From Geothrix sp. (GTDB taxonomy: Bacteria > Acidobacteriota > Holophagae > Holophagales > Holophagaceae), in NCBI GenBank assembly GCA_019449415.1, contig JAGRPP010000031.1:1-64000 (forward strand): a stretch of 64,000 nucleotides of DNA, given 5' to 3'. Shown piece by piece: positions 35,886 to 37,417 of the stretch. The position numbers were made by a program, and so were the translations under genes. How positions within the stretch are numbered: position 1 is the stretch's first letter; the number at the start of each line of letters is the position of its first letter. The notes under the pieces are model-generated. The model did not search any database. It had not been told where the DNA came from and worked only from the letters and a program-made list of their open reading frames with translations.

Positions 35886-37223
35886 ATGGCCTTTGATGTC
35901 GTCATGCCCCAGATGGGCGAGAGCATTGCGGAAGCCACCGTATTGAAGTGGCACAAGAAGGCCGGTGATGTGATCGCCAAGGACGAGACGCTCTACGAGA
36001 TCAGCACCGACAAGGTAGACGCGGAGATCCCGGCCCCCGCCGCCGGCACCCTGCTGGAGATCCTCGTGGAAGTCAACGCCACGGTCCCCGTGGGCACCGT
36101 GGTGGCTCGCATCGGCGCGGCCTCCGAGAAGCCCGCGGGTGCCGCCACCGCTCCGGTTGCTTCCGCGCCCGTGGCCGCCCCGGTCTCCGCCGCCACGGCG
36201 CCCCTGGCCGACGAGGACGACAACAGCCTCGAGGGCCGCCTCCGGACCAAGAGCAGCCCCCTCGTCCGCGAGATGGCCAAGCAGCACGGCGTGGACCTCG
36301 CCCGGATCCAGGGCACGGGCCAGGCTGGGCGCGTCACCAAGGAGGACATGGAAGCGCATCTGGCCAAGGGCCCCTCGGCATCCTCCGCTGCTCCCGCCCC
36401 AGCGGCCATCGCGCCGGTCCTGCCCGCGGTTCATGATCCTTCCGCGCCCACGCTGGGCATCAGCCCTGCCCTCTCGGTGGCCCCCGCCCCCGCCATGCCG
36501 GCCTTCGCCGCGGGCGAGCGGGTGAAGGTCGAGCCCATGAGCCGCATGCGCAAGATCATCGCCGACAACATGGTGGCCAGCCGGCGCACCTCGGCCCACG
36601 CCTACACGATCTTCGAGATCGACATGACCCATGTGGCCCAGCTGCGCAACAAGCACAAGAAGGCCTTCGAGGCCCAGTTCGGCACGAAGCTCAGCTTCAT
36701 GCCGTTCGTGATGATGGCCGCCTGCAAAGCGCTGCGCGCCTATCCCATCGCCAACGCCTCCGTGGACGGCGACAACATCGTCTACAAGCAGGACATCAAC
36801 CTCGGCATCGCCGTGAGCCTGGATTGGGGCCTCATCGTCCCGGTGGTGAAGAACGCCGACATGATGAACCTGGGCGGCCTGGCCCGCAGCCTCAACGACC
36901 TGGCCGAGCGCGCGCGCACCAAGCAGCTCAAGCCCGACGAGATCGGCGGTGGCACCTTCACCATCACCAACCCCGGCGTCTACGGCGACACCTTCGGCCT
37001 GCCCATCATCAACCAGCCCCAGGCCGCCATCCAGGGCGTGGGCGCCATCGTGAAGCGGCCCGTGGTCATCACCGGCCCTGACGGCACCGACTTCATCGCC
37101 ATCCGCCAGATGATGTTCAGCAGCCTCGGCTTCGACCACCGGATCGTCGACGGGGCCACCGCCGACCTGTTCATGGCCTTCGCCAAGAAGGAGCTGGAGA
37201 CTTCCACCTTCGGGTTGGAATAG
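35886..37223 (+). CDS. Dihydrolipoamide acyltransferase (E2) of a 2-oxoacid dehydrogenase complex
   Basis: A 445-residue E2. One lipoyl domain spans residues 1-77, with Lys43 in STDKVDAEIP as the lipoylation site. An alanine/proline linker follows, then the small E1/E3-binding domain at about 113-150 (SSPLVREMAKQHGVDLARIQGTGQAGRVTKEDMEAHL). The catalytic domain begins near 210, with His418 and Asp422 in FDHRIVDGA. The substrate (2-oxoglutarate, pyruvate or branched-chain acids) cannot be told; no E1 or E3 gene is adjacent. Oddly, the last 12 codons and stop (37185-37223) recur downstream at 37300-37338. Confidence 0.93.
   Translation: MAFDVVMPQMGESIAEATVLKWHKKAGDVIAKDETLYEISTDKVDAEIPAPAAGTLLEILVEVNATVPVGTVVARIGAASEKPAGAATAPVASAPVAAPVSAATAPLADEDDNSLEGRLRTKSSPLVREMAKQHGVDLARIQGTGQAGRVTKEDMEAHLAKGPSASSAAPAPAAIAPVLPAVHDPSAPTLGISPALSVAPAPAMPAFAAGERVKVEPMSRMRKIIADNMVASRRTSAHAYTIFEIDMTHVAQLRNKHKKAFEAQFGTKLSFMPFVMMAACKALRAYPIANASVDGDNIVYKQDINLGIAVSLDWGLIVPVVKNADMMNLGGLARSLNDLAERARTKQLKPDEIGGGTFTITNPGVYGDTFGLPIINQPQAAIQGVGAIVKRPVVITGPDGTDFIAIRQMMFSSLGFDHRIVDGATADLFMAFAKKELETSTFGLE
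37185..37223 (+). repeat. Tail repeat A, copy 1 (end of the E2 gene)
   Basis: The 39 nt that encode KKELETSTFGLE and the TAG stop. They recur at 37300-37338 with two differences, GAG to GAA and ACT to ACC, both synonymous. This copy is the working 3' end of the gene. Confidence 0.9.
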
Positions 37224-37266
37224 CGGCCGCGCGATCCACCCATTAGGACCAGGAGAGAAGCCTCGC

Positions 37267-37295
37267 GTATCGCCCCTCGCTTTTGGGGGCGATAC
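37267..37295. repeat. Stem-loop between the two tail copies of the E2 gene
   Basis: GTATCGCCCC (37267-37276) pairs perfectly with GGGGCGATAC (37286-37295) over a 9-nt loop. It sits just in front of tail copy 2. There is no T-run directly after it, so simple terminator function is doubtful. Confidence 0.75.
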
Positions 37296-37299
37296 CGAG

Positions 37300-37338
37300 A
37301 AGAAGGAACTGGAGACCTCCACCTTCGGGTTGGAATAG
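37300..37338 (+). repeat. Tail repeat A, copy 2 (displaced end of an E2 gene)
   Basis: This copy matches 37 of 39 nt of the E2 gene end, including the stop, but lies in a different frame relative to the gene and has no start of its own. The differences are only synonymous, so it reads as the end of another allele of the same gene. Confidence 0.88.
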
Positions 37339-37354
37339 ACCACCTTCTGAGCCC

Positions 37355-37389
37355 TGCGAAAAAGCGGTCAAAAAGGCCGCTTTTTCGCA
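37355..37389. terminator. Bidirectional terminator between the E2 gene and dnaB
   Basis: TGCGAAAAAGCGG (37355-37367) pairs with CCGCTTTTTCGCA (37377-37389), a 13-bp stem with A- and T-rich arms that works in both directions. It ends the plus-strand gatA-E2 transcript and the minus-strand dnaB transcript. Confidence 0.82.
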
Positions 37390-37417
37390 TAAGAGAAGCC
37401 CAGGAAGGCCTCCGTTT

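Follow-up and report, generated by a model that had tools for sequence, protein, structure and literature searches.

In bacteria, insertions seldom produce long target duplications. The IS1634-family elements IS1549 and IS1634 insert with unusually long direct repeats of 8–514 bp, for which no mechanism had been proposed as of a 2008 review (PMC2266710). MITE-like elements such as YPAL and RU-2 are non-coding and intergenic, with filled and empty sites and target duplications, which for YPAL measure 3–26 bp (PMC2229807). REP sequences and the GTAG- and CGTC-tagged repeats are short, dispersed extragenic hairpins, and the CGTC palindromic repeats have no dedicated transposase (PMC3733652).

Here we describe a structure in Geothrix that resembles each of these. 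As with IS1549 and IS1634, long direct repeats flank the insertion; however, those elements encode a transposase and have repeats of variable length, whereas the Geothrix structure contains a 31-nt hairpin and has a preferred length near 75 nt. The Geothrix hairpins are short, dispersed and extragenic like REP, but they have neither GTAG nor CGTC as a constant unpaired tag, and they are accompanied by a long flank duplication, a feature not mentioned for REP in the searched passages of PMC3733652. Their duplications, mostly of 73–79 nt, also differ from those of YPAL. With a short, non-coding, dispersed 31-nt palindromic core, empty and filled sites, and target duplication, the structure is MITE-like. 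Neither the open-licence literature nor Rfam contained a description of Geothrix palindromic repeats or of a hairpin combined with a long duplication, and the family is apparently undescribed so far.

The repeated end of the E2 gene

The window, which is the whole 64,000-nt stretch of Geothrix sp. DNA that was analyzed, contains an E2 gene with a repeated 3' end (Table 1), and dnaB lies downstream on the other strand. A preliminary description had noted a 39-nt repeat that includes the stop codon and has two silent differences, a stem-loop between the copies and a terminator after them, and all of these were reproduced. The copies X1 and X2 are identical at 37 of 39 nt, are spaced 115 nt apart and both contain a stop codon; their mismatches, GAG/GAA and ACT/ACC, are silent third-position changes. 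The stem-loop occupies 37267–37295, none being expected in shuffled sequence, and an outer CCTCG/CGAGA stem, in which a single C bulges, lengthens it to 37261–37300. The sole match in an Rfam search of the window was a tRNA.

Table 1. Features of the E2 locus in the window.
Feature	Position	Strand	Remarks
E2 gene, 2-oxoacid dehydrogenase acyltransferase	35886..37223	+	PF00198; 3' end duplicated downstream
X1, gene-joined copy	37185..37223	+	Begins at AAGAAG, an AARANG-type site 76 nt ahead of the hairpin
L, spacer from stop codon to hairpin element	37224..37259	+	
Hairpin element, G-CCTCG-C-GTATCGCCCC...GGGGGCGATAC-CGAGA	37260..37300	+	Loop longer than the usual 3 nt
X2, second gene-end copy	37300..37338	+	First base coincides with the hairpin element's last
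Native terminator-like inverted repeat, 3' of X2	37355..37389	+	Arms 37355-37367/37377-37389

This repeat is one of about 20 similar sites across the genus and is not a chance occurrence. Its placement at a gene 3' end holds for E2, but such repeats are special neither to E2 nor to 3' ends, as the starts of folP and of a manC-like gene are copied at other loci. Relatives without the 115-bp unit, whose existence the preliminary description had considered, were found: at least 18 Geothrix genomes have no second copy at the E2 site, and others have the hairpin together with a copy of their own gene end. At the empty sites, the terminator usually follows directly after the stop codon.

G008, G021, G026 and G067 (L023, L029, L020 and L384) have a distinct GC-rich element of ~126 nt 3' of the E2 stop codon, and a ~78-nt copy of the E2 gene end follows it. 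The core of this element occurs once per genome, at the E2 end only.

A hairpin family with duplicated flanks

The part shared among the loci is a 31-nt hairpin, GTCTCG-Y-GTATCGCC-NNN-GGCGATAC-CGAGA. With up to three mismatches allowed, all 47 Geothrix genomes contained at least one match, and a reversed-pattern control over the same genomes gave none. Among the 154 hairpins with three-base loops, paired stem changes (C-G/T-A at one pair and G-C/C-G at two) surround a pyrimidine that is always unpaired. The 5' flank is constant at position -1 only, where G was found in 172/172 hairpins. A scan of public sequences identified carriers in Geothrix rubra, campi, terrae, oryzisoli, fuzhouensis, fermentans, paludis and limicola, as well as in Holophagaceae or Acidobacteria MAGs and one MAG labelled Deltaproteobacteria; a separate hairpin search gave no match from any other genus. 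No viral contig matched the hairpin, and 14 hairpin loci compared with Rfam gave no match. Many of the genomes are MAGs, and loci were clustered by an automatic procedure.

Hairpins occur in three settings: followed by a duplicated flank, within longer structured elements whose ends are inverted (at least 44), and within ACCACCAAG-type palindromes. Structured elements of ~230–400 nt enclose the hairpin at L034, L037, L043, L045, L048, L055, L059, L060 and L061; their terminal inverted repeats vary among copies and stay complementary, and they have no Rfam match. At L077, L085 and L153–L158 the hairpin forms the center of ACCACCAAG...CTTGGTGGT palindromes, of which G029 has many copies. Six tandem hairpins with periods of 68–71 nt and alternating GAA/AAA loops were seen at L102:1049-1420.

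In the first setting, a two-flank alignment detected a direct repeat beginning within 4 nt of the hairpin at 80 of 172 distinct hairpins, and control junctions shifted within the same loci showed one in 0/647. The copied stretch begins at AARANG in 20 locus representatives, with the composition A(20/20)A(14/20)R(19/20)A(17/20)NG(18/20). The spacing classes rest on these 20 representatives: the distance from this start to the hairpin is 73–78 nt in 14 of them, and the others measure 40, 110, 125, 126, 141 and 186 nt.

Comparison among relatives revealed both empty and filled sites. At rpsT (S20), G016, G024 and G064 hold the hairpin between near-exact duplicates of the last codons, stop codon, spacer and terminator, and G007, G006, G013, G002 and others have a plain gene end. 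At the NFACT-R domain gene, a fresh, complete duplication that includes the terminator was found in G067, nine further genomes of the compared set have an older duplication with its own spacer, and some others are empty. Because the G067 spacer is unlike those of other species while the start codon and spacing are the same, this event looks independent on comparison of the sequences. Taken together, the fresh duplications and the empty sites point to an event in which a hairpin is inserted with a duplication of ~75 nt.

The spacers of the older copies keep their length and vary in sequence. Those at E2 are 34–37 nt long with a median pairwise identity of 41%, and those at NFACT-R are 36–37 nt long with a median of 51%, whereas the sequence after X2 at NFACT-R varies from 12 to 42 nt. 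Either the spacing is under constraint, or the unit has re-formed repeatedly at the same spacing.

Similarity between the two copies

Third positions account for 117 of the 163 differences between X1 and X2 at E2, NFACT-R and two loci with biotinyl domains, and the differences include stop-to-stop changes. Silent and non-silent codons number 24 and 3 at E2, 18 and 3 at NFACT-R, and 11 and 4 at the 141-nt biotinyl locus. A rough neutral model with X1 constrained and X2 free predicts ~47% third positions; the observed excess has p ~1e-10, a value that is optimistic because the rows share ancestry. At these four loci most differences are silent, so a simple neutral decay of copy 2 does not account for them, as had been argued from the E2 repeat.

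In G062, which belongs to the same species, both copies equal copy 2 of the window, so this relative's E2 end fits copy 2 and not copy 1, which places the two silent changes in the gene copy of the window. Between the two genomes, the spacer, hairpin and copy 2 show 0 substitutions, with one base missing in the hairpin. The preliminary description had favored replacement of the E2 gene body by a related allele, and this was not borne out: E2 is 3.5% divergent from G062, mainly at third positions, which is similar to the 3.0% of dnaB and thus gives no sign of a special replacement, and copy 2 generally resembles copy 1 of its own genome. As a separate observation, the terminator stretch at 37339–37416 is 27% divergent between the same-species genomes, next to the substitution-free spacer, hairpin and copy 2.

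Some exchange of sequence is nevertheless indicated. One of the two silent-change bases, the G at 37193, also occurs in G002 and may reflect a small allele exchange. At codon 6 of the repeated E2 end, each genome has one residue shared by its two copies, Thr for G000 and G062 but Asn for G002; this match within genomes, despite alike spacers, indicates that the copies have exchanged sequence. In G025 and G004, X2 of E2, compared over 36 nt only, is nearer to other species' gene ends, suggesting gene-end exchange limited to some relatives such as these two.

Processes that may have formed the unit

A possible sequence of events is as follows. A process would pick an AARANG site beside a gene, and the DNA from this site to the insertion point would be duplicated, usually over 73–79 nt but also over 40, ~126–128 or 141 nt. 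Insertion of the ~31-nt hairpin would then give the product X-L-hairpin-X-L. Purifying selection would hold the gene-joined copy intact while the spacer drifted in sequence, and X2 would be kept similar to X1 by recombination between the copies, by gene-end exchange with related strains, or by both. We infer that the hairpin is the mobile part, that a length is measured off and that conversion takes place. Site-selective insertion of the hairpin with a long, measured target duplication, its copies kept alike by conversion or allele exchange, is the reading that we favor, at about even odds. That an enzyme of unknown kind recognizes AARANG and measures ~75 nt, or another preferred length, which is then copied on both sides of the 31-nt hairpin, is a tentative proposal that we regard as somewhat unlikely.

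Several observations weigh against insertion. Every gene that was assigned, in a curation that was not exhaustive, lies on the 5' side of the hairpin, whereas a symmetric target duplication should also place genes on its other side, and the spacing of ~75 nt is not universal. Since most insertions look old, movement was not viewed directly. The absence of a mobilizing enzyme among three tested families counts against it as well. Y1 (IS200-like) transposase (PF01797) was absent from 13/13 Geothrix genomes and present in other genera of the class. Reverse transcriptase (PF00078) was found in only 15/47 Geothrix genomes and IS1634 transposase above the cut-off in only 5/47, both being absent from G000, G062 and G067. 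None of the three is therefore common to hairpin carriers. Mobilization in the manner of REP by RAYT requires the missing Y1 transposase, IS1634-type insertion lacks its transposase in most of the genomes at the cut-off used, and insertion by target-primed reverse transcription is rejected with carriers mostly without reverse transcriptase. A diversity-generating retroelement with template and variable repeats was rejected because the differences are not restricted to adenines and most carriers have no reverse transcriptase.

The alternative raised in the preliminary description, a small element at the gene end, comes closest to these results. A hairpin element indeed appears to have been inserted, at E2 as at many other genes, but a tRNA-type integrative element does not apply, since there is neither integrase nor cargo and gene starts are also targeted.

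A less probable explanation is that the hairpin came first, with no target duplication, and that a strand under replication later slipped back from the end of the hairpin to an AARANG site upstream, recopied 75 nt and skipped the hairpin on this second passage. X2 often departs from X1 at bases 2 and 3 (AAG to AGG, ATG to AAG) towards the usual post-hairpin sequence, as though a short primer had paired there; wherever it was assigned, the gene body is attached to the 5'-side copy, with the gene pointing towards or away from the hairpin; and the unit forms tandem arrays at L011, L046, L056 and L102. However, simple slippage would give two hairpins, so that a second skip of the hairpin is required, and neither the spacing preference nor the site motif follows from slippage by itself.

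It is improbable that an X1-L-hairpin block travels between lineages, by homologous exchange or as a tiny integrating cassette, and takes the place of the gene end while the resident end stays as X2. The mostly silent differences at E2, NFACT-R and the 141-nt biotinyl locus would fit such transfer, as would the X2 copies of G025 and G004 and the rpsT terminators of two different types in G010 and G015. However, at the biotinyl locus the closest sequence to X2 is, for most genomes, the X1 beside it, and the E2 gene body in the window shows ordinary divergence; block transfer probably adds to the duplication event rather than replacing it. Least probable of all is a selected regulatory structure in which the hairpin, spacing and repeated end serve expression or DNA binding, because although spacer length but not sequence is conserved genus-wide and stem changes are compensatory, the unit is patchy at every locus examined and the orientation of the copied gene, sense or antisense, differs from locus to locus.

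The preferred length and site motif are present in the culturable species G. fermentans, G. rubra and G. campi, which makes the process testable. A hairpin insertion process would account for many of the repeated gene ends that are misread in genomes of Holophagaceae.
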